From assembly GCF_000799565.1 (NCBI RefSeq), contig NZ_JUHB01000001.1:310001-374000 (forward strand): a DNA stretch of 64,000 nucleotides. The letters run 5' to 3'. Positions 37,796 to 62,317 of the stretch are shown in pieces; within the stretch, counting starts at the first letter, position 1; every line of letters starts with the position of its first letter. The notes beneath the pieces are model-generated. The model was not told the origin of the DNA. It did not search any database and worked only from the letters and a program-made list of their open reading frames with translations. Source of the DNA: Cellulophaga sp. Hel_I_12. GTDB taxonomy: Bacteria > Bacteroidota > Bacteroidia > Flavobacteriales > Flavobacteriaceae. The position numbers and the translations under genes are program-made.

Positions 37796-38428
37796 TTATA
37801 AATCAATAATTTTTATAAAATTACGGTATAGTTTTATTTTGCCCATTTCTTCTAATTTTTTTAAAAGCCTTGAAATAACTACCCGAGAACTGTGTAGATC
37901 GTAGGCAATTTCTTGATGGGTATTGTGAATCGTATCTTCTTTGTTAATACGCGATTTTTCTTTTAAAAAATTAAGTAAACGTTCATCCATATTCTGAAAG
38001 GCAATCGAATCCACAGTCAGTAAAAGTTCATTTACTCTTTTGTGATAGCTTTCAAATACAAAATTCCGCCACGATTTATATTTCGCCGTCCATTCTTCCA
38101 TTTTCTGAACCGGAATCATAATTAAAACTGTATCAAGCTCCGCAATGGCCCTAATTTCACTTTTAGAATTGGCGATACAACAGGTTAAAGTCATCGAACA
38201 AGTTTCACCCTTTTCTAAATAATATAAAAGTAGTTCATCTCCATCAGCATCTTCTCGAAGTATTTTAATAGCTCCTGAAATTAATAAGGGCATGCTTTTT
38301 ATATATTCTCCGATTTCTATTAATTTATAACCCTCTGGAACTTCTTTAAAAGTACCAATGGCCACAATTTCATCTAGTAATTCTTTTTCAAAAATTGTCC
38401 CGTAATTATCATACAGTTGTTGTAACAT
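37796..38428 (-). CDS. Crp/Fnr family transcriptional regulator
   Basis: 210 residues from the ATG at 38428 (MLQQLYDNYGTIFEKELLDE); a frame start at 38515 would add 29 residues outside the fold. The cyclic-nucleotide-like sensor domain contains a Cys cluster GETCSMTLTCC, and the winged helix has THQEIAYDLHSSRVVISRLL. It lacks the N-terminal Cys cluster of iron-sulfur FNR. Candidate master regulator of the palindromes found here; sulfur, redox or NO sensing through the Cys cluster is inference. Confidence 0.9.
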   Translation of the reverse strand: MLQQLYDNYGTIFEKELLDEIVAIGTFKEVPEGYKLIEIGEYIKSMPLLISGAIKILREDADGDELLLYYLEKGETCSMTLTCCIANSKSEIRAIAELDTVLIMIPVQKMEEWTAKYKSWRNFVFESYHKRVNELLLTVDSIAFQNMDERLLNFLKEKSRINKEDTIHNTHQEIAYDLHSSRVVISRLLKKLEEMGKIKLYRNFIKIIDL

Positions 38429-38662
38429 AAGCTTCAAGTATTGACTTTCAAAAATACAGCTATTCAAAGATTGTTGCAAGTAAATTAATCCATATGGCTC
38501 TTTCATTCTTTTCATCTTTGGCTAAGCTTACCCTATAGATTTGAAAAGATTAGAATGTAGTCACAAAATTAGCGACTGAATGTGATTTTTTGTTAGGAAA
38601 GAATTATTCGTTTTACATTTTCATCTCTAGTACAGAATTAACTCTATTATTATACCCACAAA

Positions 38663-49196: not shown

Positions 49197-50051
49197 TCAT
49201 CTATTTGTATTTTGTAAGGCTAAAATTGGAATCTCGAGTTCTAAACTTACTTCATCCAATGTTGTCGGGAAAAGCATATCTTCTAAAAACGAATGCTGTG
49301 TATTTACCATCGTTAAAAGATCTATATTCTTTTCTTTTATGTATTTTTTAATACCCTCTTCTACTTTTTTAGCATCTTCTGTATAATAACTTGTCTTGTT
49401 TTCTTGTAATTCATCTTTTATAAATGTTTGATTATCTTCTTGGCGAATTGATAATTTATAGGGTTTTGATATATGCACTACATGAATATGACTGCGATAG
49501 GGTTTTGCCAATTCTGATACTAATTTTAACTCTCGACGCTTATAGGGAATCAAGTAATTGGTCGGAAATAAGATTTGTTTGGGTTGTGTATTGGTATAAT
49601 TCGTAGGTATCGCTAAAACAGGACATTGAACATATTTTAAAACTTGAAAGGTTTGACTACCAAAAAGAATAGTTCTTTTGTTCGATTTTCCTTTAGTTCC
49701 CATGACAATTAAATCTATATTTTTATCTTCTACAATAGCATTTGCTTCATCGACAAGGGTATTATTGGCAGAAATAGTATGATAGCTATATCTTGGATTT
49801 GGGGCTAATTCTTGAACTGTAGCGATAAGATTTTTTAATTTATTTTCGGATTCATTTTTAACACGTTCTAACACCTCTGTAAATACTTGTCGAGAAGTTA
49901 AATCGTCATGATCATAAAATTCGTTTTTATAGGCATGCATAAAATAAAAGTCTACTTTTTGGTATTTAAAGAATTGTAAGGCATACTTTATAGCGTTCAT
50001 GGAATTGTCTGAAAAACCGTTGGTAACAATATGGTCATCATAGTACTTCAA
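49197..50051 (-). CDS. Tandem-domain universal stress protein (USP 3)
   Basis: 284 residues. The N-terminus departs from its siblings: DDHIVTNGFSDNSMNAIKYA replaces the usual IL.PTDFS. The ATP-type loop is MGTKGKSNKRTILFGSQTFQ, and the second domain ends with TMVNTQHSFLEDMLFPTTLD, slightly diverged. First gene of a likely three-USP run (USP 3-2-1) read from the Fnr-like promoter at 50096. Confidence 0.9.
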   Translation of the reverse strand: MKYYDDHIVTNGFSDNSMNAIKYALQFFKYQKVDFYFMHAYKNEFYDHDDLTSRQVFTEVLERVKNESENKLKNLIATVQELAPNPRYSYHTISANNTLVDEANAIVEDKNIDLIVMGTKGKSNKRTILFGSQTFQVLKYVQCPVLAIPTNYTNTQPKQILFPTNYLIPYKRRELKLVSELAKPYRSHIHVVHISKPYKLSIRQEDNQTFIKDELQENKTSYYTEDAKKVEEGIKKYIKEKNIDLLTMVNTQHSFLEDMLFPTTLDEVSLELEIPILALQNTNR

Positions 50052-50065
50052 TTAAATCTTGAAAC

Positions 50066-50109
50066 TAAAAATAATTTATTCACAGACCATATACTATGAT
50101 AATTGTCAT
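50066..50109 (-). promoter_or_regulatory. Fnr-like box and -7 element for USP 3
   Basis: ATGAT-AATT-GTCAT at 50096-50109. On the minus strand TATTTTTA starts at 50073, 29.5 bases from the box centre, and lies 15 bases before the USP 3 start. This is class II activator geometry with no -33 element. Confidence 0.72.
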
Positions 50110-50198
50110 GTAAAATTTAATAGCAAGATCTCATAAGAGCGCTAACGACTAGTGTTTTTATAATAATTGTAAACGTCAAACTAAAACTTTAGCTGGGA

Positions 50199-50453
50199 TT
50201 GTTTAAATTTGGTCAGATTATTATACCTAAGCTAGATACTTTGAATACCAATAAGTACGTATTATTTTCATCTGACCATCAATATGTGGTAGAATACCTA
50301 TTTAATCAATTGGTTTTAAGTAATAGTATTTCAGAAGCTTTGATTTTTGAAAATTATGAACTCGCTATTCGGTTTCAAAAAACAATTGTAGAAGAGTGTA
50401 AGTGTCAATGTTCTATAAATACGTACATTGAATTTAATTCATCGAACACATAA
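50199..50453 (+). CDS. Hypothetical 84-residue protein, TTG start
   Basis: Open frame from the TTG at 50199 to 50453; no ATG lies near the 5' end. Contains NKYVLFSSDHQYVVEYLFNQ and FQKTIVEECKCQCSINTYI. The composition looks protein-like but I recognise no family. The lack of ATG and of a -7 element at the expected offset from the box at 50096 lowers confidence. Confidence 0.4.
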   Translation: MFKFGQIIIPKLDTLNTNKYVLFSSDHQYVVEYLFNQLVLSNSISEALIFENYELAIRFQKTIVEECKCQCSINTYIEFNSSNT

Positions 50454-50477
50454 ATGCTGTTCGTGATTTTTAAAGAA

Positions 50478-50624
50478 TTATGATTCTTTAGCTTTTTTAA
50501 GAATAGCTTTTAGTCGGTCTTTTCTAAGCTCCTTTTCGGCTTTCTTTTTATTTACTTTTCTAGCCATGAGCTTGGCGTGTTTGGCTTTATTTTTTGTATT
50601 TTTTTGACCTTTAGGTTTTGGCAT
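50478..50624 (-). CDS. 48-residue highly basic protein
   Basis: ATG at 50624, stop at 50478. Starts MPKPKGQKNTKNKAKHAKLM and continues with repeated Lys/Arg; about 40% of residues are basic and there are almost no hydrophobics, so nucleic-acid or ribosome binding is plausible (inference). It starts 9 bases after the response-regulator fragment stop, so the two may share a transcript. Confidence 0.6.
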   Translation of the reverse strand: MPKPKGQKNTKNKAKHAKLMARKVNKKKAEKELRKDRLKAILKKAKES

Positions 50625-50633
50625 CGTAAGTTT

Positions 50634-50765
50634 TTATGAGTTTATTTTTTCTAAACTTATACAAGCATTTGAAGCAGTTCCTGCGCTGCAACCTTCATAT
50701 TCAAAAAGTTCTGCAGTAATCTCACGAATACTTGGATCGTCTTCACTGAATATAATACTAATCAT
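50634..50765 (-). CDS. 43-residue protein resembling the first part of a receiver domain
   Basis: ATG at 50765, stop at 50634. MISIIFSEDDPSIREITAEL matches the first strand, acidic pocket (EDD) and helix 1 of response-regulator receivers; FEYEGCSAGTASNACISL continues it. The frame then ends, so the phospho-accepting Asp and everything after are missing. Either a pseudogene remnant or a truncated micro-protein. Confidence 0.55.
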   Translation of the reverse strand: MISIIFSEDDPSIREITAELFEYEGCSAGTASNACISLEKINS

Positions 50766-50915
50766 GACATAAGTTAATTTTAAGGTATAAGTAAACAAGG
50801 ATAATAAGATAAAAAAATATCTCTTTTAGTTAAAGAAAATGATTTTTAAATTGGTTTTATAAATATTTTAGAAGCAAATGTTAAAATTTAGAAAAACGTA
50901 CTAAACTGATCTAGG

Positions 50916-50958
50916 TCATGTTCGAACTAAAATTAGTATATTATCTTAGCGGTATAAT
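50916..50958 (+). promoter_or_regulatory. Fnr-like box and -10 element of a non-coding transcript
   Basis: CTGAT-CTAG-GTCAT at 50916-50929, then TATAAT at 50953-50958, 30.5 bases from the box centre. The transcript would start near 50964. Confidence 0.62.
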
Positions 50959-50963
50959 TAAAG

Positions 50964-51133
50964 AAAATTTCGTTCATTGAAAATAAAGAAAAGAGGGGAT
51001 TATAACTATTTTTATACCATTTGAATTCTGAATTAACTTAGTAGTAAGTTCTGTAGGGATCAGTATAAGAGGCAGAAATAGTAAAAAATTTCTTCTAGGA
51101 AATCGGAACATTCGGTGTTCCGATTTCTTTTTT
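50964..51133 (+). ncRNA. Candidate Fnr-controlled small RNA, about 170 bases
   Basis: Bounded by a class II-type promoter and a perfect 12-base terminator stem. There is no ATG anywhere before the terminator, so it is very unlikely to encode a protein by an ordinary start. No known RNA family recognised. Confidence 0.55.
51099..51133 (+). terminator. Intrinsic terminator 1 of the serial set
   Basis: Perfect 12-base stem (51099-51110 with 51116-51127), loop TTCGG, then six or more T. Confidence 0.9.
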
Positions 51134-51290
51134 AAAATACTAAAACATGTTTAAGTACTATCGCAAGGCAGTATTTATCTTAGTAAAGGAATAAATGATG
51201 TTAGTATCTAAATGAATAGTGTAACACATTTTGTAAAAAAAATGTTGAAATTAGGATTAAAAGATCATAGCGATATTTATTACTTTATGG

Positions 51291-51322
51291 AAAACAGGAA
51301 GTTGAAACTTCCTGTTTTTTCT
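51291..51322 (+). terminator. Intrinsic terminator 2 of the serial set
   Basis: Stem around ACAGGAAG/CTTCCTGT (51291-51318) followed by T residues. Confidence 0.85.
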
Positions 51323-51476
51323 TAAAATTACTTAGCAAGGTTTCTAAGCAGTAATGCCTTAGAAATTATACATAGGTGATCTAGAATTTTTTTTAGCTTT
51401 AGAATATGCATAATTATAGTACGGTAGTATTTAGTTGTAGTACTTACTAAGTAAAAAAAGTTAGTTATCACCTTAC

Positions 51477-51517
51477 AAAGGACTGTAATGCTGGAATAGT
51501 ATTTCAGTCCTTTTTAA
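51477..51517 (+). terminator. Intrinsic terminator 3 of the serial set
   Basis: Nine-base outer stem AAAGGACTG/CAGTCCTTT plus a six-base inner stem separated by one mismatch, 5-base loop, then T run. A degenerate box (GTGAT-CTAG) at 51376 and TATAGT at 51415 could be its promoter. Confidence 0.85.
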
Positions 51518-51663
51518 CATATGATATGATCAGGGACTTATCCTTGAAAAAGTATATAGCCTAGGAAAGTTCGAATAGTTTTTATGAATATTGTCTACCA
51601 TATCATTTTACGATTAAAATGAAGGACAGATTAGAACAAAAAAAATATTTGAGCTTTGAAAAG

Positions 51664-51697
51664 AAACAAGTGTACCAAAGGTACGCTTGTTTTTATT
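51664..51697. terminator. Intrinsic terminator 4, shared by both strands
   Basis: 13-base stem with one G-T pair (51664-51676 with 51680-51692), loop AAA, T-rich on both strands. It also ends the lipoprotein gene on the minus strand. Confidence 0.88.
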
Positions 51698-51706
51698 TTA
51701 TACTTT

Positions 51707-52105
51707 TTAGTTACGATTTCTCGTAGCACTGTTTTTTGAAGTTCTATATTTGCTTTTGCTATAGTTATCATGATAACTGCGAATATTGTCATCCGTATAA
51801 TTACGAACCCTTTCATATCTTGATCTTCTTAAATCAATATCTTTATATCTTAAGGGTAGGGAACTTCTGCGAACCCAAACACCAGCATCTAAATACACAT
51901 AAGAATTCGCTGATAAGTCATAATAGAAACTATAGTCAGGAAAATATACATAGCGAACCATTTCTAAGCGATTAGGATAAAACCATGATGGTGGCAGATT
52001 ATTTGATTTCGATGAAAATACAATTGTACCACAGCTTGATAACATTAGAAGTGTTAAATAAACTAGAAATAACAAGAATGAACGAATAAGGTTTTTCATT
52101 TCCAT
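51707..52105 (-). CDS. Small lipoprotein of unknown function
   Basis: 132 residues (an alternative ATG at 52099 removes two). Lipobox LMLSSCG at about residue 25. The mature part is rich in Tyr, Arg and Ser: MVRYVYFPDYSFYYDL, NSYVYLDAGVWVRRSSLPLR, then a basic tail. It recalls a Bacteroidota lipoprotein family with YVYLD.G.W repeats, function unknown. It is controlled from the Fnr-like box at 52153. Confidence 0.78.
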   Translation of the reverse strand: MEMKNLIRSFLLFLVYLTLLMLSSCGTIVFSSKSNNLPPSWFYPNRLEMVRYVYFPDYSFYYDLSANSYVYLDAGVWVRRSSLPLRYKDIDLRRSRYERVRNYTDDNIRSYHDNYSKSKYRTSKNSATRNRN

Positions 52106-52122
52106 AGCCTTAGTTTTAAAAA

Positions 52123-52166
52123 CAAAGTAAAGGGTCTTTTGTACTTTATGAAATGATTTAGGTCAT
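52123..52166. promoter_or_regulatory. Fnr-like box between the lipoprotein and the second cardiolipin synthase
   Basis: ATGAT-TTAG-GTCAT at 52153-52166. On the minus strand TTACTTTG starts at 52130, 29.5 bases from the centre, and serves the lipoprotein. The plus-strand side has only a weak -7 candidate near 52189. Confidence 0.68.
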
Positions 52167-52292
52167 CCCATTTTGTTTTTTTGTAGAGCAAAGTTTCCAT
52201 TTCTATAATCTAGGGATAAAATGACCAATATCATAAAAAGTATACTTATATCAGTGTACTTTGAACTGTATGAAAGTTTAGAAAGGAGGAAC

Positions 52293-53699
52293 ATGTTAAC
52301 GATTTTATTTTTAGTCTTTTATCTTGTAGTTGCATTATTCATAATCACAAGTATACTGCTTCATGGAGCAAAACCATCTAAGACGTTAGGGTGGCTTCTA
52401 GCCATATTTACAATTCCGGTTGGAGGTATCATTTTATATCTCTTACTAGGTCGAAATCGAAGAAAAAGCAAATTACTAAAACTAAAGAAAGCAATATTTT
52501 TAAAGCTTCCAAAGCCTTCAACTGAACATATGGCTTCTATGAGTGGGAAGTACAGGAAGTTGATGACTCTTATTTATAAAAACGCTCATTTTCCGCCAAC
52601 CTCGAATAATCAGCTTCAATTATTAAAAGATGGTAAAACAACTTTTGAATCTATTTTTAAGACATTAGAAAAAGCTCAAAGTAAAATACATTTACAGTAC
52701 TATATATTCGAAGAAGGAATACTCACAGACCGCTTGTTGCTTTTATTTGAAGAAAAGGTAAAACAAGGTGTTCAGGTACGAATGATCTATGATGGCGTTG
52801 GTAGTTTTTCACTAAGCAAGTTATATTTAAAAAAGTTAAAAGTAATTGGGGTAAAGGTTTATCCTTTTCTTCCTTTTAAGTTTGGTCGTTTTCTTTCCTC
52901 ACTCAACTATAGAAATCATCGAAAAATAATAGTAGTAGATAGTGAAATTGCATTTACAGGAGGTATTAATATATCAGATAAATATTTAAAGGGTGATCAT
53001 AGTTTGGGTAATTGGCATGATATGCATTTAAAAATCGAAGGACCTGCAGCAGCTCATTTAGATTACGTTTTTGCTATGGATTGGTATTTGGTTAGTCAAG
53101 AAACCATAATACCTATTACTTCATTAAAGCCAAGTACTTCTGAAACTACTGGCAAACTTGTGCAAATTGTATCAGGGGGTCCAGATGATGATTTTCCATC
53201 ATTAGAACAAGCTTATTTCACCATAATGAATAAGGCAAAAAAATACCTTTATATTACGAATCCTTACATTATTCCTGGTCCCGCAATTATGCAAGCGCTG
53301 CAAACAGCAGCTTTAGGAGGTGTAGATGTTCGTTTACTAGTATCTGAGAAAATAGATAGTAAAATTGTAGGTTGGAGTGTAAAATCATACTTTGAAGCTT
53401 TACTGAAATCAGGTATAAAAATCTATCTTTTTCCTGATGGCTTTTTACATAGTAAAATTATTGTGAGTGACGATTCCGTTTCAACTATAGGTACAGCAAA
53501 TTTAGATGATCGAAGCTTTGAGCAGAACTACGAAGTCAATGCTATTATATATGATCAAGAATTTGCTATGTTGCTAAAAGATGATTTTTTAAAAGATGCT
53601 CAAATCAGCAGTATGCTTTCATATCAAGAATATATTAAAAGACCATGGAGCGATAAGTTAAAAGAAGGTTTTGGTAAAGTATTCAGTCCTGTTTTATGA
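52293..53699 (+). CDS. cls: Cardiolipin synthase (second copy)
   Basis: 468 residues from the ATG at 52293, chosen because MLTILFLVFYLVVALFIITS starts the membrane anchor and a perfect AGGAGG lies 4 bases before it, rare in this phylum. An in-frame ATG at 52221 would add 24 residues. HKD motifs: LNYRNHRKIIVVDSEIAFTGG and FLHSKIIVSDDSVSTIGTAN. Diverged from the copy at 42411. Its end overlaps the converging ldhA gene by 6 bases. Confidence 0.92.
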   Translation: MLTILFLVFYLVVALFIITSILLHGAKPSKTLGWLLAIFTIPVGGIILYLLLGRNRRKSKLLKLKKAIFLKLPKPSTEHMASMSGKYRKLMTLIYKNAHFPPTSNNQLQLLKDGKTTFESIFKTLEKAQSKIHLQYYIFEEGILTDRLLLLFEEKVKQGVQVRMIYDGVGSFSLSKLYLKKLKVIGVKVYPFLPFKFGRFLSSLNYRNHRKIIVVDSEIAFTGGINISDKYLKGDHSLGNWHDMHLKIEGPAAAHLDYVFAMDWYLVSQETIIPITSLKPSTSETTGKLVQIVSGGPDDDFPSLEQAYFTIMNKAKKYLYITNPYIIPGPAIMQALQTAALGGVDVRLLVSEKIDSKIVGWSVKSYFEALLKSGIKIYLFPDGFLHSKIIVSDDSVSTIGTANLDDRSFEQNYEVNAIIYDQEFAMLLKDDFLKDAQISSMLSYQEYIKRPWSDKLKEGFGKVFSPVL

Positions 53700-54701
53700 G
53701 TCTGCCATCTCAAGACCTAATTCATTTTTACCCACTGTATGAGCCAACCAACTATCAATATTTTTGAAGGTAATTTCGGCAATGTGTTGTAAAGCTTCTT
53801 TGGTGACAAAGGCTTGATGCGGTGTGAGCAGCACATTAGAAAAAGTTAATAATTTTTTTAAATCTTCATCTTTAATACTGTCTTTACTATTATCTTTAAA
53901 GAACGTACCTTTTTCTTTTTCATAAACGTCGGTGCAATAGCCAGCAATGGCACCTTTCTCTAAGGCTTCGATTAGTGCTTTAGTATCCACTAAGGCACCT
54001 CTTGATGTATTTATTAAAATTGTATCTGACGACATTAAAGCTAGTTTTTCTTTATTAATCAGATAGTAATTTTGATAGCTCAAAGGAATATGTAGACTTA
54101 TAATTGCTGCTTTTTTATAAATTTCATCTAAAGTTACATAAGTAACATCGCACAGTTCAACCAGATCATCATCTGGTTGAAGATCATTAGCCAATATTTT
54201 ACAGCCAAAACCATGCATAATCTTCACCATTATACTCCCAATTCTTCCAGTACCTATAATACCTACTGTTTTACCATGTAAATTAAAACCCATTAAATTA
54301 TTTTGTAAAAAATTGTAGGCATGTACTTGTTCATTAGCCATTATTATTTTTCTATTTAGGGTAAGCAATAAAGCTACAGCATGTTCTGCAATTGCGTGCG
54401 GGGAATAATCTGGAGCATTAGCGACTTGAAAGCCTAAATTTTTAGCCACCTTAAGATTTATATTATTGAAACCCGCCGAGCGTATGGTGATAAAACGCAC
54501 ACCCAAATCCCATAGTTTTTCTAGTACTATGGCTGATGCATCATCACCTGAAAATATACAAATAATTCTATAACCAACTGCTTTGAAAACGGTTTCAGTA
54601 TCTAAAGCATCTGGTGTAAAAGTAATTTGATACTTGTTGATATTGGCAGCACTTATAAAAGGAATTTCAAAGGCTTTAGCACTATAAACTAGTATTTTCA
54701 T
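53694..54701 (-). CDS. ldhA: D-lactate dehydrogenase, LdhA type
   Basis: 335 residues. NAD motif VGIIGTGRIGSIMVKIM; catalytic Arg in NTSRGALVDT, Glu in TDVYEKEKGTFF and His in LTPHQAFVTKEAL. The YEKEKGTFFKDNS segment is close to fermentative LdhA. It reduces pyruvate to D-lactate and regenerates NAD+, which fits low-oxygen life. It overlaps the upstream lipoprotein gene by 20 bases. Confidence 0.9.
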   Translation of the reverse strand: MKILVYSAKAFEIPFISAANINKYQITFTPDALDTETVFKAVGYRIICIFSGDDASAIVLEKLWDLGVRFITIRSAGFNNINLKVAKNLGFQVANAPDYSPHAIAEHAVALLLTLNRKIIMANEQVHAYNFLQNNLMGFNLHGKTVGIIGTGRIGSIMVKIMHGFGCKILANDLQPDDDLVELCDVTYVTLDEIYKKAAIISLHIPLSYQNYYLINKEKLALMSSDTILINTSRGALVDTKALIEALEKGAIAGYCTDVYEKEKGTFFKDNSKDSIKDEDLKKLLTFSNVLLTPHQAFVTKEALQHIAEITFKNIDSWLAHTVGKNELGLEMADS

Positions 54702-55338
54702 GGGTGATTTCTTTTTTGAATATTAAATCTTGATCTTCCATAGCTAGAATCACTAATTTTATATAGTCATCGATTGTTTTTTCTATATTTTTAGGGTCTG
54801 TGATATCTATACTTCCTCTCCAAATCATCGCTCTTTCTTTACCTTCACAAATACAATATAGGGTTGTCTCTGCATGGTAAACAGTAAATTCATCGTAGTA
54901 ATCCTCGTCATAATAAATACCTTGGTGTGATCGATAATCTTCATTAAATCGACCCTTATAATTATCTAATTTTGATATGGCTTTTATAAAGCTTTCTCTA
55001 TCTTCAGAGCCTGTTATTTTAGTAAATAAAATGGCATCAAAATCTTTATCTAAAAGGCTTTGCTCCACAGCATCTAATTCCTTCTCAGTTTTTGCTGAAT
55101 TCGTAAAGGCTATATCAAAAACATCTAAACTGGCTACAGCCTCTACATTTCTTTGTTTGAATTCTTGCTGTAATTTGTCCTCAAAATTTTCTCTAGCTTC
55201 TGCATTTGCAGTCATTCCAACTATTAAAACCTTGTTTGCATTAAAAATTACGATATCTGGATTTTTCCAGTTTTCCACAAGACTAACGGGGGAACAGCCG
55301 ATTAAAAATAAAGTAGTTATAAACAGTAGTTTTTTCAT
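54682..55338 (-). CDS. Lipoprotein of unknown function in the ldhA operon
   Basis: 218 residues. Lipobox FLIGCSP at about residue 15. The mature part has an alpha/beta look: NANKVLIVGMTANAEARENF, DFDAILFTKITGSEDRESF, then an acidic Tyr-rich loop and IWRGSIDITDPKN. It resembles DUF4136-like outer-membrane lipoproteins, but not surely. Middle gene of the helical protein-lipoprotein-ldhA set. Confidence 0.72.
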   Translation of the reverse strand: MKKLLFITTLFLIGCSPVSLVENWKNPDIVIFNANKVLIVGMTANAEARENFEDKLQQEFKQRNVEAVASLDVFDIAFTNSAKTEKELDAVEQSLLDKDFDAILFTKITGSEDRESFIKAISKLDNYKGRFNEDYRSHQGIYYDEDYYDEFTVYHAETTLYCICEGKERAMIWRGSIDITDPKNIEKTIDDYIKLVILAMEDQDLIFKKEITHENTSL

Positions 55339-55351
55339 CGGATACGTATAT

Positions 55352-55789
55352 TTAATGAAGTAAACGTTTATCCTTTTTTATGGCTAGTGATACAATTTTA
55401 AAAAGCTCTTTTTTGATGGCTCTATTTTTTTCGATGTAAGTGCTTATGGCAACGATAAGCTTTTTATGAGTTTCTAAATAGGCTTTTTCCATCTCTAGTT
55501 GGTCAATAGTATCTACCATAATCTCTAATTGCTTTTCATGCTTTTGAACCATTTTTAATAAAGGCCCTAAATCGTCTTCTAATTTTTTTAGATTGATTAT
55601 GGTATTTTTACTTTCTTTAAAGAATGATGTATCAATTAATTGCCGTGTGTATGATTGAACTAAGTCATTTAAAAATAGCTGTTCATCTTTAATGAAATTT
55701 AATTCGGATAGCCACTGTTTAATAGTTTCATGCATTTCTTCGGCACTTAACCATTCTAAATAGGTGTATTTTAAAATATTATTTTTCAT
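55352..55789 (-). CDS. All-helical hypothetical protein
   Basis: 145 residues, no signal peptide. Long amphipathic helices with heptad-like spacing (KNTIINLKKLEDDLGPLLKM, QLEIMVDTIDQLEMEKAYL) suggest a four-helix bundle or coiled coil. Weak similarity in layout to the protein at 60449 (Trp-rich N-terminal helix, then Lys/Glu helices). First gene of the ldhA operon, 13 bases before the lipoprotein. Function unknown. Confidence 0.7.
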   Translation of the reverse strand: MKNNILKYTYLEWLSAEEMHETIKQWLSELNFIKDEQLFLNDLVQSYTRQLIDTSFFKESKNTIINLKKLEDDLGPLLKMVQKHEKQLEIMVDTIDQLEMEKAYLETHKKLIVAISTYIEKNRAIKKELFKIVSLAIKKDKRLLH

Positions 55790-55944
55790 GTCTTTTTTAT
55801 AGTGTGCTATTAATTAAAATAATCAAGCTTTAATAGTTTTTTTCAGAATAATAGTGGTGAAAATAATGACGATAATACGCTATAATAAGGTTTTAATTCT
55901 TTTTATGATGATAGTGACTTTTAAAATATTAAAAGTGTCTGCAT

Positions 55945-56017
55945 AATGAATGCTGAAAATTATTAGCGCTAACGAATTGATTTTTTGTGTTAGAATTTCA
56001 AATATTCAGCATTCATT
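55945..56017. repeat. 13-base perfect inverted repeat with 47-base spacer
   Basis: AATGAATGCTGAA at 55945-55957 and its exact complement at 56005-56017, between the eRF1-like and helical-protein genes. The spacer holds TTAGCGCTAA and a CTAAC/GTTAG pair. Confidence 0.8.
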
Positions 56018-56023
56018 TGATGC

Positions 56024-56431
56024 TTATTTTTTAAAAAAATCTCTAACTAATGCTTTTACTTGGTTCTCAGTCATACTATCAGCCTTTGCCACTGTTTTTA
56101 CTTTAAGAGCCAAAGGAATATGATGTTCTTTTAAGTACTTACTAAACTTTTCATTGGTGTTTGCAGGACCAAACAAAGCAATGGCATCGGCGTTTTTAAC
56201 AGCATTGGCCAAATTTGTAAAGTATGCTTTTAATTGGGACTTTTCTCTTTCGGTATACGTACTTTCATGTGTTATATTTTGAGTACTACCTGTTTTTGCT
56301 CGAGAGCCACCTGTACCTGTTCTGTTGAAAAATTCAATTTCCGAAAAAACCGTCTCTAATTTTTCACCTGAATCGCTCAAATAAACAATATGACTTTTTT
56401 CTTTATCTATCCAAATTCCAATATTTTTCAT
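56024..56431 (-). CDS. eRF1-domain-like (host attachment/translational machinery family) protein
   Basis: 135 residues from the ATG at 56431 (MKNIGIWIDKEKSHIVYLSD). The fold pattern, an N-terminal hairpin, a Gly-rich loop (NRTGTGGSRAKTG), YTEREKSQLKAYFTNLANAV, then AIALFGPANTNEKFSKYL, resembles small bacterial eRF1-like proteins. Function in the family is unproven; ribosome interaction is a hypothesis. Last gene of the USP 6-5-4 operon. Confidence 0.7.
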   Translation of the reverse strand: MKNIGIWIDKEKSHIVYLSDSGEKLETVFSEIEFFNRTGTGGSRAKTGSTQNITHESTYTEREKSQLKAYFTNLANAVKNADAIALFGPANTNEKFSKYLKEHHIPLALKVKTVAKADSMTENQVKALVRDFFKK

Positions 56432-56453
56432 AAGTATTATTTTAAATTTATTA

Positions 56454-57293
56454 TTAATGTAAGGCCAATATGGGCGTAATAGCGTCATATCCTATTTCTT
56501 TAACCAATGGTTTAGAAAAGATATTACCAAAAAAGAAGTGTTTCCGATTAATAAATGCAATCATATCACTATTTCTACTTTCTACAAATGAGGTAATACC
56601 TTCCGATAAATCAGTATCAGAAAGGACATGAAAACTATATTCAACCACACTTAATATAGCTTCTAAAAGTTGTTTGTTATCTTCTTGCGCGGTAGTCAGT
56701 TTATTTTCTTTCTTAATATGTAATACCCGAATAGAAGCGCTGTGTAATTTTGCTATTTCAATAAGATAGTTCATTTCTTTACGCTTGTAACTGGTTTTGT
56801 AATCTGTAGGAAAAACAATTTCCTTTAGTGGAGAAAATTGAGTGTTTTCAGGAATAGCAAGCACTGGACAAGCTGTAATTTTTTCCATAGTTTTTACGGT
56901 GTTACTTCCTAAAATTAAATCTTTAGCATTAGTGGCTCCTTTGGTTCCCATAATTACGATATCGATATCTTTTTTGGCTAATTGTTCTTTGATCGCTTCT
57001 GATAGAAAATTAAAGCTTGAGATGGTATGGTATGTATGTTTAGGATTATCATGATGAAGCTTTAAGGTATTTAAAAATTTTACAAAGAAGGCTTTAGATT
57101 GGTTTTCTGTATGCTCGTAAGTCTCAGAACCTGGTTCTGGTAATACTAATGTACTGGTGGTATAACCTTCTAATTGAAAAACATTTAAAAAATAAAATTC
57201 GCAGTTCACTTTTGCATAAAGGTTTAACGCATAGCGGGTAGCATTTAATGCATTTTTCGAAAAATCAGTAGGAATTAATATTCTTTTGTCCAT
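56454..57293 (-). CDS. Tandem-domain universal stress protein (USP 4)
   Basis: 279 residues. ILIPTDFSKNALNATRYALN start; ATP-type loop MGTKGATNAKDLILGSNTVK; second-domain signature AFINRKHFFFGNIFSKPLVK, where the usual HSF[FL]E is HFFFG, so it is diverged. Lies 63 bases after the true end of USP 5 and 22 before the eRF1-like gene. Confidence 0.91.
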   Translation of the reverse strand: MDKRILIPTDFSKNALNATRYALNLYAKVNCEFYFLNVFQLEGYTTSTLVLPEPGSETYEHTENQSKAFFVKFLNTLKLHHDNPKHTYHTISSFNFLSEAIKEQLAKKDIDIVIMGTKGATNAKDLILGSNTVKTMEKITACPVLAIPENTQFSPLKEIVFPTDYKTSYKRKEMNYLIEIAKLHSASIRVLHIKKENKLTTAQEDNKQLLEAILSVVEYSFHVLSDTDLSEGITSFVESRNSDMIAFINRKHFFFGNIFSKPLVKEIGYDAITPILALH

Positions 57294-57356
57294 AATATTT
57301 TTTTAAGTTTTTCGATTATAATTGTCAACTTTATTGAGCATTACTAATAGCAAGTA

Positions 57357-58204
57357 TTATTCTTCATAAGGAAGTATTAATAAAGGTATATCCGCAGAAA
57401 TACTAACATCTTTAATAACGGGTTCTCGTATTATTTTTTCAAAAAAACTATGTTTATAATGTATCATCGAAAACAAATCAATATGCTGTTTTTTTAAAAA
57501 GCATCAATTACTTGCGCTTTAGCTGAAAAATTTTGGATCCAATGAAAACTATAGCTATACTCCTTTAGACAATTTTCTAAAAGTTTTCTTTTTAATTCTT
57601 GTTCGGCATCTAATATCTCATTTTCGTTTATGTGCATCACTCGAATGTTGGCATTAGAAAGTGATGCAATAAAGCGTAGTGGCGCTATATTTTTCTCTCC
57701 ACAACCTTTTTTAAAGTTAGTTATAAAAGCAATTTCTTTTAGGGTTTTAAAATTTATTTGTTTGGGTACCGCCAAAATTGGACATAAGTTTATAGAATTC
57801 GCAACTTGTACGGTATTACTTCCCATAAAAAGATCCTTAGCACTGGTATTTCCTTTATTTCCCATCACTACAAAATCAATAGCATGATAATGGATGATTT
57901 TTTTTAAAATTTTGGTTAATGTGCCTTTTTTCGATATCGTTTCAAAGCTATGTATAGGATTATCAGTATCTAAGTTTATTTTATGAAGTACATGTAATAA
58001 TTTCTCTTTAGAACTAATCTCTAATAATTTTAGTAATTTTTTATCACCAAAAAGTGATGTTTTTTTTTCTTCTAAAGGTGTAAGCTTATCAAAGACATTT
58101 AATATGTAAAAAGTACAGGACTTTGCCGCCAATAATTGTGTGCTATAAAACAGCGCGGCGTAGGCATCGTTTGAAAAATCAGTAGTAACTAGAATATTTT
58201 TCAT
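57357..58204 (-). pseudogene. Universal stress protein (USP 5) with a frameshift
   Basis: The frame from the ATG at 58204 stops at 57494 after 236 residues (ending KAQVIDAF). At a T5A7 run (about 57487-57498) a missing base separates this from a frame that reads QHIDLFSMIHYKHSFFEKII and ends at 57357. Restoring one base gives 282 residues, the sibling length, and the array signature KHSFFE. The ATP-type loop in the first domain is intact (MGNKGNTSAKDLFMGSNTVQ). A mutation, a read error in a homopolymer, or -1 slippage at TTT before TAA would each explain it. Confidence 0.85.
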
Positions 58205-58214
58205 TAAACCATTT

Positions 58215-59051
58215 TTATAATTGGGGAATGACCATAAAAGGTACCGTAATGTGAAATCCTAATTTTTTGATGACTGGTTCTATAAAAAGACGCTCTAAAA
58301 AAGTATGTTTGTTTTGTATCATCACTAGAAGATTTATTTTATTTTTCACTTGAAATTGATTGATAGCATTAATTACTTCATTATCTGGCATTTCGTGAAA
58401 AAGACTCATAGTACTTATAAGTTTCTCTAATTGTTTTTTATATTTTTTCTGGAGCGTATTTAAATCTAACCCAGCACGAACGTGCATTACATTGATACGG
58501 GAATTATGCTGTTGAGCGATAATGAACAAAGATTCTAATGCTTCTTTTTTGTAATCAATTTCATAATCTGTTGGGAATAATATTTCTTTTGGAGCTTCAT
58601 ATTCAAAATTCGGGGGTACTACAATTATGGGGCGTTTTGTTTTTTTTATTACATGAACAGCGTTAGACCCAAAAAGAATCTCCTTAGCACCTGTTGCTCC
58701 TGTAGTTCCCATAATGATCATATCTATCTCTTCTTGTTCTGTAGTCTCTATAACTTCGTTGACTAAGGTGTTAAAAGCAGTGCGAATTTTAAACGTGTGA
58801 TTTGTATTTTTATATTGACTTTCTAAACGAACTTTTAGTTTTTCTAGACGATTCGTTGAGGTCTCTTGCATAACATCACCCAAACCTATGAGTCCTGGAC
58901 TTCCTAATAAATATTCGGTTTGGTAAACAGGCGGTGTATAGGTATGCAATAAAAAGAAAGTACATTTTAGATCTTTAAAAACAAGTAATGCATATCTAAT
59001 TGCTTCAAAGGCATTATCGGAAAAATCGGTAGGGAGCAAAATTCGTTTCAT
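58215..59051 (-). CDS. Tandem-domain universal stress protein (USP 6)
   Basis: 278 residues. ILLPTDFSDNAFEAIRYALL; LGSPGLIGLGDVM subgroup segment; ATP-type loop MGTTGATGAKEILFGSNAVH; second domain VMIQNKHTFLERLFIEPVIK. Closest to USP 2 and USP 9. First gene of the operon USP 6-5-4-eRF1-like, driven from the box at 59099. Confidence 0.93.
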   Translation of the reverse strand: MKRILLPTDFSDNAFEAIRYALLVFKDLKCTFFLLHTYTPPVYQTEYLLGSPGLIGLGDVMQETSTNRLEKLKVRLESQYKNTNHTFKIRTAFNTLVNEVIETTEQEEIDMIIMGTTGATGAKEILFGSNAVHVIKKTKRPIIVVPPNFEYEAPKEILFPTDYEIDYKKEALESLFIIAQQHNSRINVMHVRAGLDLNTLQKKYKKQLEKLISTMSLFHEMPDNEVINAINQFQVKNKINLLVMIQNKHTFLERLFIEPVIKKLGFHITVPFMVIPQL

Positions 59052-59068
59052 GATCTTTTATCTTTCTA

Positions 59069-59142
59069 TAAATTTAAGGCTGAATAATTTTAAAAACTAT
59101 GATATTGGTCAGTTCACTATTTTATTAATTTTAGTATTTTTA
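59069..59142. promoter_or_regulatory. Divergent promoter pair around one Fnr-like box (USP 6 / thioredoxin)
   Basis: ATGAT-ATTG-GTCAG at 59099-59112. Minus side: TAAATTTA starts at 59076. Plus side: TATTTTTA starts at 59135. Both are exactly 29.5 bases from the box centre, and both start codons are 54-56 bases from it. Confidence 0.78.
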
Positions 59143-59160
59143 TTTTTTAAATTATTGCAA

Positions 59161-59460
59161 ATGAAACTTAATTTCAAAACAATTATCGACTCTGAAGTTC
59201 CAGTTCTTATTGATTTTTATGCTGATTGGTGTGGACCATGTAAAGCATTAGCCCCTATATTAAAGCAAGTAAAAGACGAGATGGGTGACGCTATAAAAAT
59301 TATTAAAATTGATGTAGATAAAAATCAATCTACAGCTTCAAAATTCCAAGTTCGTGGAGTGCCGACCTTAATATTGTTTAAAAAAGGGGAGCAGCTCTGG
59401 CGACAATCAGGTGTACTCCAAAAAAATGATCTTATTAATGTTGTTAAATCTCATTCCTAA
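59161..59460 (+). CDS. trxA: Thioredoxin
   Basis: 99 residues from the ATG at 59161 (MKLNFKTIIDSEVPVLIDFY); the frame is open back to 59050 but that extension covers the promoter. Active site WCGPCK and the cis-Pro loop VRGVPTLILF are intact, with no signal peptide, so it is cytosolic. It reduces disulfides. Divergent from USP 6 and sharing its Fnr-like box. Confidence 0.95.
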   Translation: MKLNFKTIIDSEVPVLIDFYADWCGPCKALAPILKQVKDEMGDAIKIIKIDVDKNQSTASKFQVRGVPTLILFKKGEQLWRQSGVLQKNDLINVVKSHS

Positions 59461-59487
59461 TACTTGGTCAAAAAAATTGATGCCATT

Positions 59488-60333
59488 TTATTCGGATTTG
59501 TGTAAAACTAAAAGTGGTGTTGTTGTTTGGTAGCTAATTTTTTCAACCGTTGGTTTTACAAAAAAACGTTCTAAAAAATTTAAATTCTTGGTTATCATAA
59601 CCACCATATCTAGTTCTCTACTTTCTGTAAAACATCGTATAGAGGTCTCTAGTTTTTCTCCTGTTATTTTATGAAAACTATGTTGAATCTCCTTAAAATT
59701 AGTAGCTAACCGTTCTTTGTTATCCATTTGTAAAACATTAAAGTCAGCGCCATTAAGTACAACATACAAAAAGCGTATAGTGGAGTTATGGATTAATGCT
59801 ATGTCTTTTAGATGATCTAATGTTTTTATATTATAGTCTATTTTAAAATCTGTCGGAAAGCCAATTTCTTTTGGTTTTTTAAAAACTGTATGTTCAGGTA
59901 TTGCTAAAATTGAACATTTTATTTTGGCTATTACATTTCCTGTGTTACTCCCAATAGCTACTGCTTTTAAACCTGTTGCTCCTTTGGTACCCATAATAAT
60001 GAGATCAATATTCTTGTCTTTTACTTCTTTTTGTATATGATCCGTAAAAAAGCCATAAAAAGCCATAGTATGAAAGCTATGTTTAGTATTGAAAGGTAAA
60101 TGCTCTATGTCTTTTAGTACTTTATGGAGTTGTTCGGTAGTTTCTTTTAAAATAGTTTCTTCAATAATTTCAGGTGTTATAAATACTGCCGATTCTCCTC
60201 CAGAATACGATTTTATTGGATTTACATGAATAAGGTAAAAAGTGCATTTGCTTTTTTTGAAAAATTCCATACCATAAGTAATTGCATTCCATGAATTTTC
60301 AGAGAAGTCAGTAGGAATAAGTATGTTTTTCAT
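59488..60333 (-). CDS. Tandem-domain universal stress protein (USP 7)
   Basis: 281 residues. ILIPTDFSENSWNAITYGME; ATP-type loop MGTKGATGLKAVAIGSNTGN; second-domain signature replaced by VMITKNLNFLERFFVKPTVE, so the KHSF core is lost while FLERFF remains. Monocistronic, divergent from the helical protein at 60449. Confidence 0.92.
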   Translation of the reverse strand: MKNILIPTDFSENSWNAITYGMEFFKKSKCTFYLIHVNPIKSYSGGESAVFITPEIIEETILKETTEQLHKVLKDIEHLPFNTKHSFHTMAFYGFFTDHIQKEVKDKNIDLIIMGTKGATGLKAVAIGSNTGNVIAKIKCSILAIPEHTVFKKPKEIGFPTDFKIDYNIKTLDHLKDIALIHNSTIRFLYVVLNGADFNVLQMDNKERLATNFKEIQHSFHKITGEKLETSIRCFTESRELDMVVMITKNLNFLERFFVKPTVEKISYQTTTPLLVLHKSE

Positions 60334-60358
60334 TTTAGGTGCCTTTTAAGATATAGGA

Positions 60359-60432
60359 TAAATTTAATGGAGTATAAATTGTTTTCAAATGACTTTGGTC
60401 ATTTGATATCTAATACAACGGCGTTAGTTTTA
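60359..60432. promoter_or_regulatory. Divergent promoter pair around the best Fnr-like box (USP 7 / helical protein)
   Basis: CAAATGAC-TTTG-GTCATTTG at 60386-60405 is perfect over 8-base arms. Minus side: TAAATTTA starts at 60366. Plus side: TAGTTTTA starts at 60425. Both are 29.5 bases from the centre. Confidence 0.85.
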
Positions 60433-60448
60433 GACAAAATTTTAACTC

Positions 60449-60922
60449 ATGAAAAAAATAGAAGAAAATATGCTAAAAAAAGATACTTCTTCAAAGATTT
60501 TAGCTTGGTATGCGGCATCTAAAGAATGGATTTCAACTATTGAATTTTATTTAGATAGTTTTTTTACTATGAAAAATATTATAGATCGCTATCTTGATAA
60601 AATTTTAAAAAATGAAAATTTAGATGAAATCAGAGAATGTGTTATGCGACTTCAAGATATTCGATATTCATGTAGTGAAGCCTTAGAAAAAGTTAAATTA
60701 CATAAAGGGGTATTGGTTGAGTTTCAGGATAAGAAATTACAACCAATTGCTTCGCTGGAAAAAGAACACTTAAGATTAAAGAAAATTATGGGCACTTGCC
60801 ACAAAAATTTTAAGGAGATTAAAAATGAGGTTTTTAGTATTACAGAGCATACTCTTCAAATAAGTAAAGAAGAAAATTTAGCTATAGAACTAGAGAAAAT
60901 AAAAGTAGCAAGAAATAATTAA
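60449..60922 (+). CDS. All-helical hypothetical protein
   Basis: 157 residues, no signal peptide or membrane segment. Helical throughout: ILAWYAASKEWISTIEFYLD, LDEIRECVMRLQDIRYSCSE, LEKEHLRLKKIMGTCHKNF. Layout recalls the protein at 55352; they may be distant paralogues. It is controlled by the strongest Fnr-like box in the window, so it is probably an important but undescribed member of the regulon. Function unknown. Confidence 0.75.
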   Translation: MKKIEENMLKKDTSSKILAWYAASKEWISTIEFYLDSFFTMKNIIDRYLDKILKNENLDEIRECVMRLQDIRYSCSEALEKVKLHKGVLVEFQDKKLQPIASLEKEHLRLKKIMGTCHKNFKEIKNEVFSITEHTLQISKEENLAIELEKIKVARNN

Positions 60923-60935
60923 TTAATTAATTAAT
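60917..60935. repeat. AATT tetranucleotide run at converging gene ends
   Basis: Nearly five AATT units span the stop codons of the helical protein (60922) and the ROK gene (60931). Confidence 0.75.
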
Positions 60936-61902
60936 ATTTGGCCTCTAAGCTTACCCATGCTAATGCAGCAGGACCTAATACAGCATCTGAGCTTGTTGCG
61001 TTTGAAAGCAATACTTTAATTTTTCCTTTGTAAGCACTAAACAAATACTTTTCCATATTGTTTAGGATAGGTTTTAAAAGAATATCTCCAGCCTTACTTA
61101 ATCCACCAGATATAATAAAAGCTTCAGGATCTAGATGGGCAACAGTATCTGCCATTTTGCTTCCTAGTATTTTACCCGTTTTTTCAAAAGCATTTAGGGC
61201 TATAAGATCACCGGCTAAAGCTGCTTTGGAGATATCTGTTCCAGTCATTTCTGAAAAACTAATAGTTCTTAAAACAGAGTCTTCCCGCATTTCAGAAAGT
61301 AACTCAAAAACTGTTCTTTTAATACCAGTTACTGAAGCGTAGGTTTCTAAACAGCCTTGTAAACCGCAATTACACATTCTACCTTGTGGATCAACATTTA
61401 CATGACCAATTTCCCCAGCGGCCCCATGTTCTCCAATTAATAATTTTCCATCTGTTATAATTCCACTTCCCAGACCTGTACCCAAAGTTAAGGTTACAAA
61501 GTTTTTCATGCCTTTGGCAGACCCAAATATCAGTTCCCCCAAAGCCGCTGCGTTTGCATCATTAGCAATAAAAACGGGTAACTTAAAAGCTTTTTTTATG
61601 GTTTCTAAAAGTGGAATAGCTTTGCCCCATTTAAGGTTTGGAGGATTTTCTATTTGGCCAGAATATGGGTTTGCATTTGGTGCTCCAACACCGACAGCAA
61701 TAATTTTAATATCAGAATTTTGTTTTAAAATAAGCGCTTCAACTTCAGATTTTAGTTTTATCATAAAGACTGAGAAGGGTTTTTCTGCTTCTGTTTCAAA
61801 AACTTTTTTATCTAAAATGTGACCATCTTTGCTTACTAGACCTATTTTCGTTAAGCTACCGCCTATATCAATTCCTAATACTGTTTGTTTCGCCATTTTC
61901 AT
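60931..61902 (-). CDS. ROK family sugar kinase (glucokinase-like)
   Basis: 323 residues (start could also be 61896). ATP motif LGIDIGGSLTKIGLV; second motif VTLTLGTGLGSGIITDG; ROK zinc site GHVNVDP...CNCGLQGCLETYAS; AHLDPEAFIISGG near the end. It phosphorylates glucose or a related sugar, so may raise glycolytic flux when respiration is limited (inference). Transcribed from the box at 61950. Confidence 0.9.
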   Translation of the reverse strand: MKMAKQTVLGIDIGGSLTKIGLVSKDGHILDKKVFETEAEKPFSVFMIKLKSEVEALILKQNSDIKIIAVGVGAPNANPYSGQIENPPNLKWGKAIPLLETIKKAFKLPVFIANDANAAALGELIFGSAKGMKNFVTLTLGTGLGSGIITDGKLLIGEHGAAGEIGHVNVDPQGRMCNCGLQGCLETYASVTGIKRTVFELLSEMREDSVLRTISFSEMTGTDISKAALAGDLIALNAFEKTGKILGSKMADTVAHLDPEAFIISGGLSKAGDILLKPILNNMEKYLFSAYKGKIKVLLSNATSSDAVLGPAALAWVSLEAKY

Positions 61903-61919
61903 GATTTTTTAATCGTCTA

Positions 61920-61993
61920 CAAAAGAAAATAATTTTTAATTCTTTCCAACTGATGCATATCATTTTATAAGCCGTAGTCTTTGTTTAATTTGT
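61920..61993. promoter_or_regulatory. Divergent promoter pair around an Fnr-like box (ROK kinase / HMA-like protein)
   Basis: CTGAT-GCAT-ATCAT at 61950-61963. Minus side: TTCTTTTG starts at 61927. Plus side: TAATTTG starts at 61986. Both are 29.5 bases from the centre; start codons are 52-55 bases away. Confidence 0.7.
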
Positions 61994-62008
61994 AGAAAAT
62001 TCAACATT

Positions 62009-62317
62009 ATGCAAGCTCTCGCAACCTTAAAAAATATAAATTCTAATTCTTGTAAAGAATTAATAGTTCGTAATTTAAGTAGAATTCTTGATATTCGAAT
62101 CCTTGATATTGATCTTGATATTGGTATTCTCAGTTTTACTTATAGCACGCAACATTCTTTTGAACAGGTAAAAAAAGAACTACATAGAATTGGATATCCT
62201 ATTCAGAATTACACAAATACTTCTAAAAAGGAATCAAAATTTCAAAAAGCTACTTCTCAAAATTCAACTGAATTTAAAGTAAGAGGTAGAAGACCTTATT
62301 ATTCTTTTAATCCATAA
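62009..62317 (+). CDS. HMA-fold-like small protein without metal cysteines
   Basis: 102 residues. The order of elements (CKELIVRNLSRILDIRILDI, then ILSFTYSTQHSFEQVKKEL, then HRIGYPI) parallels an HMA ferredoxin-like domain, including the closing IGYP, but the CxxC is absent. The tail is basic and Ser/Thr-rich. Probably a non-metal binder or regulator. Divergent from the ROK kinase and sharing its Fnr-like box. Confidence 0.7.
   Translation: MQALATLKNINSNSCKELIVRNLSRILDIRILDIDLDIGILSFTYSTQHSFEQVKKELHRIGYPIQNYTNTSKKESKFQKATSQNSTEFKVRGRRPYYSFNP

Follow-up and report, generated by a model that had tools for sequence, protein, structure and literature searches.

Class II-type operators of a predicted oxygen-limitation regulon around a universal stress protein island in Cellulophaga sp. 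Hel_I_12

What controls the universal stress protein (USP) genes that lie together in Cellulophaga sp. Hel_I_12, and in response to which signal? We analyzed a 64,000-nucleotide stretch of this genome (the window, G000:C1:310001-374000; the genome is a single contig of 4.03 Mb), in which a first-pass annotation had proposed that palindromes upstream of USP and other genes constitute an Fnr-like regulon. We consider it likely that these palindromes act as class II operators for an activator, with their centre at -41.5 of sigma-A promoters, and that they belong to an oxygen-limitation regulon with a gene content like that of the DosR and lxa systems and with interchangeable regulators. A strict promoter was defined as a TGAY-N4-RTCA palindrome followed, after a gap of 23 bases, by a -7 element TAnnTTTR; the reversed pattern served as control. 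The palindromes and -7 elements between positions 50000 and 62000 are the following.

50096..50109: operator palindrome ATGATAATTGTCAT, in class II position for a minus-strand USP gene, with a strict -7 element at gap 23
50066..50073, minus strand: strict -7 element TATTTTTA, serving the USP gene 49197-50038
50906..50919: palindrome CTGATCTAGGTCAT, orphan or non-functional; neither side has a -7 element at gaps 22-24
52153..52166: operator ATGATTTAGGTCAT, with the -7 element TTACTTTG at gap 23 on the minus strand
52123..52130, minus strand: degenerate -7 element TTACTTTG (TTnnTTTG), ahead of the gene 51707-52105
52221..52234: perfect operator ATGACCAATATCAT, with TACTTTGA at gap 23 on the plus strand, upstream of ATG 52293
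59099..59112: divergent operator ATGATATTGGTCAG, with a strict -7 element at gap 23 on each strand
59069..59076, minus strand: -7 element TAAATTTA, heading the USP-led gene run 59051-53694
59135..59142, plus strand: -7 element TATTTTTA, serving the thioredoxin gene
60389..60402: divergent operator ATGACTTTGGTCAT, with a strict -7 element at gap 23 on each strand
60359..60366, minus strand: -7 element TAAATTTA, serving the USP gene 59488-60333
60425..60432, plus strand: -7 element TAGTTTTA, serving the gene 60449-60922 for a protein of unknown family
61950..61963: divergent operator CTGATGCATATCAT, flanked by two degenerate -7 elements, TTCTTTTG (minus strand) and TAATTTGT (plus strand)

The first-pass annotation had counted six palindromes. 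Its coordinates were right for 50096, 52153, 59099 and 61950; those given as 50916 and 60386 correspond to 50906-50919 and 60389-60402, and the perfect seventh palindrome at 52221 had been overlooked. Eight -7 elements had been placed 29.5 bases from a palindrome centre. Five are strict TAnnTTTR elements (50073-, 59076-, 59135+, 60366- and 60425+), and three are degenerate (52130-, 61927- and 61986+), with TTnnTTTG at 61927- and TAnnTTGT at 61986+. A ninth promoter, 50953+, had been given a distance of 30.5 bases from a wrong palindrome coordinate; the actual distance is 40.5, and we rejected it. The -7 boxes at 61986 and 52257 are of the TAnnTTG type and resemble the SM5 class (TAnnTTGY), which is kept separate from the sigma-A consensus in excerpts of PMC9723704; they are perhaps a second promoter type within the regulon.

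One would expect some palindromes to occur by chance in AT-rich DNA, and single sites without a promoter, such as 50906, may have arisen in this way. Between 50000 and 62000, however, there are 7 palindromes against a mean of 0.716, and 5 strict promoters against a mean of 0.002; none of 1,000 second-order Markov resamples reached either number. Over the whole window, a longer motif with at most one mismatch gave 21 matches, compared to 8.25 expected, and none of 100 shuffles was as high. The pattern TGAYNNNNRTCA occurs 294 times in the genome, compared to 175 times for its reversed form. When a palindrome was allowed at 9 to 38 bases from TANNTTTR, 64 matches were listed in the genome, of which 29, by our own count, had a gap of exactly 23, with two more listed at a shorter gap; the search at fixed gap gave 31 matches and the reversed control 1. 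A wider -7 pattern (9 seen) was composed after the sites had been viewed and is not counted as a test. The sites cluster from 360,097 to 405,017 of the genome, that is, from window position 50,097 to 31 kb beyond the window end. This island holds 25 palindromes in 46 kb (2.05 expected) and 17 strict promoters, while the flanking 69 kb hold 5 palindromes (3.55 expected).

The spacing is conserved. In stretches from 20 relatives taken together with the island, gap 23 was found 77 times and any other gap from 5 to 59 at most 5 times; four of the 20 stretches (L025, L040, L043 and L044) had no strict site. We then considered 80 named loci picked for carrying a response regulator of the type described below, which therefore show that regulator and sites co-occur. 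They contain 526 palindromes, compared to 128 for an inverted control, and 338 matches at gap 23, the next gap in the 5-59 range having at most 9; each of the 80 loci has at least one site. The resamples and the dominance of a single gap in these loci refute chance for the sites taken together, and its probability is negligible. A scan of relatives had been named beforehand as the point on which the proposed regulon could fail; the motif is enriched around their genes, and gap 23 dominates.

The sites share the logo [AC]TGAY-N4-RTCAT, flanked by T-rich sequence. In a pool of 337 gap-23 promoters, positions -34 to -29, in the operator flank, are T-rich (0.27 to 0.62 bits) without a fixed TTTG or TTG, and positions -28 to -13 all carry 0.2 bits or less. 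The first-pass view that no -33 element is needed thus agrees with the pooled promoters, which have no TTTG at -33. In Flavobacterium psychrophilum, the -7 box lies at -12 to -5 (excerpts of PMC9723704), so that a gap of 23 bases puts the palindrome centre at -41.5. This is class II geometry, as had been proposed, and gap 23 prevails in the genome itself as well as in the relatives. Of 369 gap-23 promoters (338 from relatives and 31 from the genome's own stretches), 352 are followed within 350 bases by an open reading frame (ORF) starting with ATG, the median distance from the start of the -7 element to the ATG being 31 bases (quartiles 28-35). The first genes of these 352 include members of clusters of USPs (165), the divergent neighbour of the kinase HK1 introduced below (39), the S30AE hibernation factor (18), the 60449-60922 protein (15), CcoNO-like proteins (10, assigned by eye) and thioredoxin (8).

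Which protein could bind these operators? The Pfam model HTH_Crp_2 gave four matches above cut-off, and two below, over the genome. The four candidates are:

37796..38515, minus strand: Crp-family protein, the regulator proposed in the first-pass annotation; judged unlikely
genome position 3,027,017: Fnr-like protein, divergent from the cco genes
genome positions 376,011-377,063 (window-equivalent 66,011-67,063): RR1, a receiver-cNMP-HTH_Crp protein (Pfam) behind the PAS kinase HK1
genome positions 394,547-395,617: RR2, a receiver-cNMP-HTH_Crp protein (Pfam) behind the PAS kinase HK2

Both response regulators, both kinases and most of the sites are outside the window. In the recognition helix, RR1, RR2 and the Fnr-like protein have T-E-[ST]-x-I-R in common; the 37796 protein has SSRVVISR there, without the Glu. 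We then compared site densities in 196 genomes of the order, 40 of them from the family of this strain. A response regulator was scored as present when one of up to ten candidates scored in a genome matched over its full length; for an Fnr-like protein, the threshold was E 1e-40. Gap-23 sites amounted to 0.63 per Mb in the 86 genomes with neither regulator (reversed control 0.07), 1.74 in the 81 genomes with the Fnr-like protein only (0.10), 3.80 in the seven genomes with the response regulator only (0.08), and 3.97 in the 22 genomes with both (0.14). Within the family, there were 164 matches in 17 Fnr-only genomes, 93 in the seven regulator-only genomes and 356 in 16 genomes with both.

The 37796 protein is encoded inside the window and occurs in all 40 sampled genomes of the family. 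Its presence adds no site density, however: 12 genomes with this protein and neither of the other regulators have 0.53 sites per Mb (11 matches, 0 controls), which does not exceed the value for all 'neither' genomes, compared to 1.43 per Mb (52 matches, 6 controls) in 12 genomes that lack it and have the Fnr-like protein. Together with a recognition helix that lacks the Glu common to the other three, this makes it a very improbable regulator, and it was rejected.

Could the Fnr-like protein beside ccoNO alone govern all sites, the response regulators acting elsewhere and merely being located among its targets? The ccoS-ccoNO genes, which adjoin its gene, carry a strict site, and the geometry is kept in the 81 genomes that have it without a response regulator. 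Yet the seven regulator-only genomes, with no close Fnr-like protein, hold 8 to 18 sites each (93 in all, 2 controls), ccoS and hemN being among the genes concerned, and sites are present in all 80 regulator neighbourhoods. We therefore regard control by the Fnr-like protein alone as unlikely.

For the targets of the two exclusive classes, 40 stretches covering part of the listed sites were read; they come from four genomes of the Fnr-only and three of the regulator-only class and contain 56 gap-23 promoters (the source listing had 95 sites in eight genomes; G133 was left out of the reading). FixS or CcoNO was found behind gap-23 sites in all four Fnr-only and all three regulator-only genomes; HemN in two of four and two of three (G041, G160, G192 and G188); and the Fe-S repair protein RIC in one of four and two of three (G144, G188 and G034). 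Cytochromes c and USPs were found in both classes, the latter, among Fnr-only genomes, just in G160 (by eye). Family scans confirmed FixS in G041, G160 and G192, CcoNO in G026, HemN in G041 and G188, and RIC and cytochrome c in G144 and G188, the rest being assigned by eye. Because both classes share targets, we call the regulators interchangeable. The operators (27 Fnr-only and 28 regulator-only sites) showed no clear difference in their core, the Fnr-only centre favouring A/T.

Outside the order, in a draw of 148 genomes from the phylum, 20 genomes of other orders in the same class had about 98 matches (8 controls) and 111 genomes of other classes about 68 (15 controls), these being hand sums. 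The geometry weakens with phylogenetic distance, yet extends past the order.

What the regulators may sense was approached through the kinases and the cysteines; the roles of FixL and FNR residues are general background, and the alignments were computed here. The 80 loci contain 82 regulators, with a kinase directly upstream of 78. Among the other four, the regulators of L053 and L105 start 70 bases or less from the locus end and that of L100 1.7 kb from it; the L123 regulator has 5.4 kb of upstream sequence and no kinase. The distal, oxygen-contacting Arg of Bradyrhizobium japonicum FixL is R220. The equivalent of the FixL haem His (H200) is present in 71 of the 78 adjacent kinases, that of R220 in 62, and both in 61. 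HK1 aligns with FixL 1d06 over its PAS domain (E 7.6e-14) and has H66 at the haem-His position. For RR1, no PDB chain among the best 60 of 330 matched covers both halves in its best stretch, and no NCBIfam match among the best 25 of 105 reaches cut-off; the closest named regulator matches come from Arenibacter, Pricia and Maribacter (very near genomes may have been excluded from the comparison). In 38 loci, a gap-23 site precedes a member of the cluster to which the gene divergent from HK1 (no Pfam family) belongs. The operator serving this divergent gene is separated by 25 bases from the start codon of HK1 (L001, genome positions 378577-378671), and may thus also damp HK1-RR1.

The Fnr-like protein combines PF00027 (cNMP-binding fold) and PF13545 (Crp HTH), and its best NCBIfam match is the Fnr model, below the cut-off of that model. 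When aligned to FNR (PDB 9qlt), it does not have the four cluster cysteines of the E. coli pattern: Cys9, Cys12 and Cys111 align with FNR cysteines, the third N-terminal cysteine of FNR is matched by Asn18, and Cys58 is matched by Ala. Among 23 aligned Fnr-like sequences, which include two paralogues and two sequences truncated at the start, Cys9 is conserved in 18, Cys12 in 17, and Cys58 and Cys111 in 19 each. Cys58 is a new residue in place of the third FNR cysteine, and the protein may or may not work like FNR. In G160 (L159, 3297-3980), a diverged Crp/Fnr paralogue adjoins the Fnr-like gene and is itself behind a gap-23 site.

Several observations weigh against an oxygen regulon with two kinds of regulator. 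The genomes share ancestry, so that counts across genomes and loci are not independent. Some of the 31 matches in the genome itself may not be promoters, several being inside or beside unrelated genes. The 'neither' genomes have 64 matches compared to 7 controls, some of which are visibly one coding site recurring among related genomes, so the background is not zero. Scoring a genome as Fnr-absent depends on the threshold, and two genomes scored in this way (G057 and G164) hold a Crp paralogue 31-32% identical. Regulator-bearing genomes of other families have low counts, with 2 to 6 matches each in G027, G077, G082, G120, G141 and G177; since, in addition, the regulator-only genomes all belong to one family, the association is strongest locally. 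In the family f4, three Fnr-like proteins lack all four cysteines and the genomes retain gap-23 sites. Such a joint loss is expected for ligands of one cluster, but if the f4 proteins bind the retained sites, no such cluster is involved. HK1 has Lys at the position of the oxygen-contacting Arg, and HK2 has neither the haem His nor the distal Arg; at least one of the two kinases therefore probably senses something else. Finally, targets such as RIC are no less compatible with nitric oxide than with oxygen.

The same architecture may thus respond to nitric oxide, or to another haem or redox ligand. Nitric oxide can be a ligand of haem PAS domains, and RIC is among the targets read in both regulator classes. 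The core targets, however, are the cbb3 oxidase and the oxygen-independent HemN, and in F. psychrophilum oxygen limitation induces the cbb3 oxidase and haem-synthesis enzymes (excerpts of PMC9723704). We regard nitric oxide as a rival to be taken seriously, though a rather improbable one. The FixL-like PAS domains, the Fnr-like cysteines, the cbb3 and HemN targets and this F. psychrophilum response are our reasons for proposing oxygen.

Under the oxygen model, the operators would be bound by Crp/Fnr-fold regulators of two kinds, with a recognition helix E-x-x-[IV]-R. The first would be the Fnr-like protein beside ccoNO, with a predicted oxygen-labile Fe-S cluster on Cys9, Cys12, Cys58 and Cys111. 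The second would be the receiver fused to a cNMP-HTH_Crp module, whose gene follows that of a PAS histidine kinase; in most kinases of the RR1 type, the PAS is a putative haem domain like that of FixL. The kinase would be switched at low oxygen, the receiver would be phosphorylated, and the Crp part would then bind the operator and touch RNA polymerase. The targets would protect and idle the cell: USPs, Hsp20, the ribosome-hibernation factor, thioredoxin, PfkB, a phosphoenolpyruvate (PEP)-utilising enzyme, the cbb3 oxidase and the oxygen-independent HemN. We are somewhat inclined to see in the low-oxygen programme of flavobacteria a FixL-FixJ-FixK cascade compressed into two proteins, a haem PAS kinase and a receiver-Crp fusion. 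In some lineages this pair would have replaced an Fe-S Fnr with unusual cysteines, the operators and the -41.5 geometry at cbb3 and hemN being kept; in others, both would share the operators, and the fusion would have spread them over a dormancy-like USP island.

The present system resembles FixL-FixJ-FixK in that it begins with a kinase carrying a putative FixL-like haem PAS, ends with a Crp module like that of FixK and has the cbb3 oxidase as a target. In that cascade, FixJ (receiver and LuxR HTH) and FixK are separate proteins; here, receiver and Crp module are on one. The FNR, FixK and Anr class II regulons of Proteobacteria likewise use a Crp-fold activator and a TGA-N6-TCA core; FNR operators are centred at -41.5, and the targets include the cbb3 oxidase and hemN. 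Their outer operator base is the T of TTGAT, whereas here it is mainly A or C, which matches the Ile in place of Ser in the recognition helix. The promoter is of the Bacteroidota TAnnTTTG type, and the third cluster cysteine would be at 58, not at the third position of FNR. Anr controls USPs as well (excerpts of PMC6127331).

The island also recalls the DosR and lxa systems by a USP cluster with Hsp20, PfkB and similar genes (Pfam). DosR/DevR and OsdR of Actinobacteria involve a LuxR-type regulator and haem sensors other than FixL, and their regulons have PfkB and M50-CBS members. They also share with the island many USPs, a heat-shock protein, a pyruvate-phosphate-dikinase (PPDK)-type enzyme and USP genes near regulator genes, but have an unrelated operator (excerpts of PMC5069765). 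The lxa (low-oxygen-activated) cluster of Burkholderia cenocepacia is linked to persistence under limited oxygen, and its 50 genes include six for USPs as well as genes for a heat-shock protein and a phosphofructokinase; it is proteobacterial, an Anr-like protein is its suspected regulator, and the excerpts of PMC6127331 mention no receiver-Crp fusion. The system would offer a Bacteroidota parallel to these dormancy-type islands and a natural case of regulator replacement beneath fixed operators. Flavobacteriales Crp/Fnr homologues were predicted in 2021 to be carbon-sensing (excerpts of PMC8510549). In a literature search by titles and abstract openings, we found neither a named regulator of the Flavobacteriaceae oxygen-limitation response nor a Bacteroidota Fnr regulon or receiver-Crp regulator, and we claim no absence from print beyond that. 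With a predicted operator of single-base spacing, a list of targets and two candidate regulators, the question of the regulator becomes directly testable.

The target genes in and just beyond the 50000-62000 region are:

49197..50038, minus strand: USP; apparent frameshift near the 5' end, start about 50038 by eye
51707..52105, minus strand: small protein resembling a lipoprotein (by eye), without Pfam family
52221..53699, plus strand: PLD-family enzyme; the listed ORF start overlaps the perfect operator
53694..59051, minus strand: seven genes behind the 59076 promoter, for three USPs, two unknown proteins, a lipoprotein-like protein (by eye) and a 2-hydroxyacid dehydrogenase
59161..59460, plus strand: thioredoxin
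59488..60333, minus strand: USP
60449..60922, plus strand: protein without Pfam or NCBIfam family, in relatives too behind gap-23 sites
60931..61902, minus strand: ROK-family kinase
62009..62317, plus strand: small protein with no Pfam family and one NCBIfam match far below cut-off

That USPs, thioredoxin, a ROK kinase, proteins of unknown family and one resembling a lipoprotein belong to one regulon, as first suggested, is supported. The PLD gene probably starts at ATG 52293, behind the TACTTTGA box, and the run 59051-53694 would form one operon. The island, which holds two kinase-regulator pairs, also encodes (mostly by Pfam) an S30AE ribosome-hibernation protein, a short-chain dehydrogenase, a DUF302 protein, a PfkB kinase, an M50 protease with CBS, Hsp20, a P-type cation ATPase, a patatin, a PPDK/PEP-utilising enzyme, an MlaE permease and many USPs. 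A strict site is not present for every island gene; the hibernation gene has the box TATTTTCG. Outside the island, strict sites precede genes for a cytochrome c, two USPs, a pyridine-nucleotide oxidoreductase, FixS-CcoNO, and the oxygen-independent HemN, which is above its NCBIfam cut-off.

Two USP genes appear to be frameshifted. The gene at 49197-50041 (minus strand) continues in another frame near its 5' end, the listed ORF starting late or at a TTG, which may also reflect a sequencing error; that at 57494-58204 (minus strand) ends early, with a typical USP end in another frame near a T run (57360-58204). The small lipoprotein-like family, recognized by eye and without a Pfam or NCBIfam match for the single member scanned, recurs near the sites: at 54682-55338 of the window, at 380866-381498 of the genome and at 3175-3810 of the relative locus L014.

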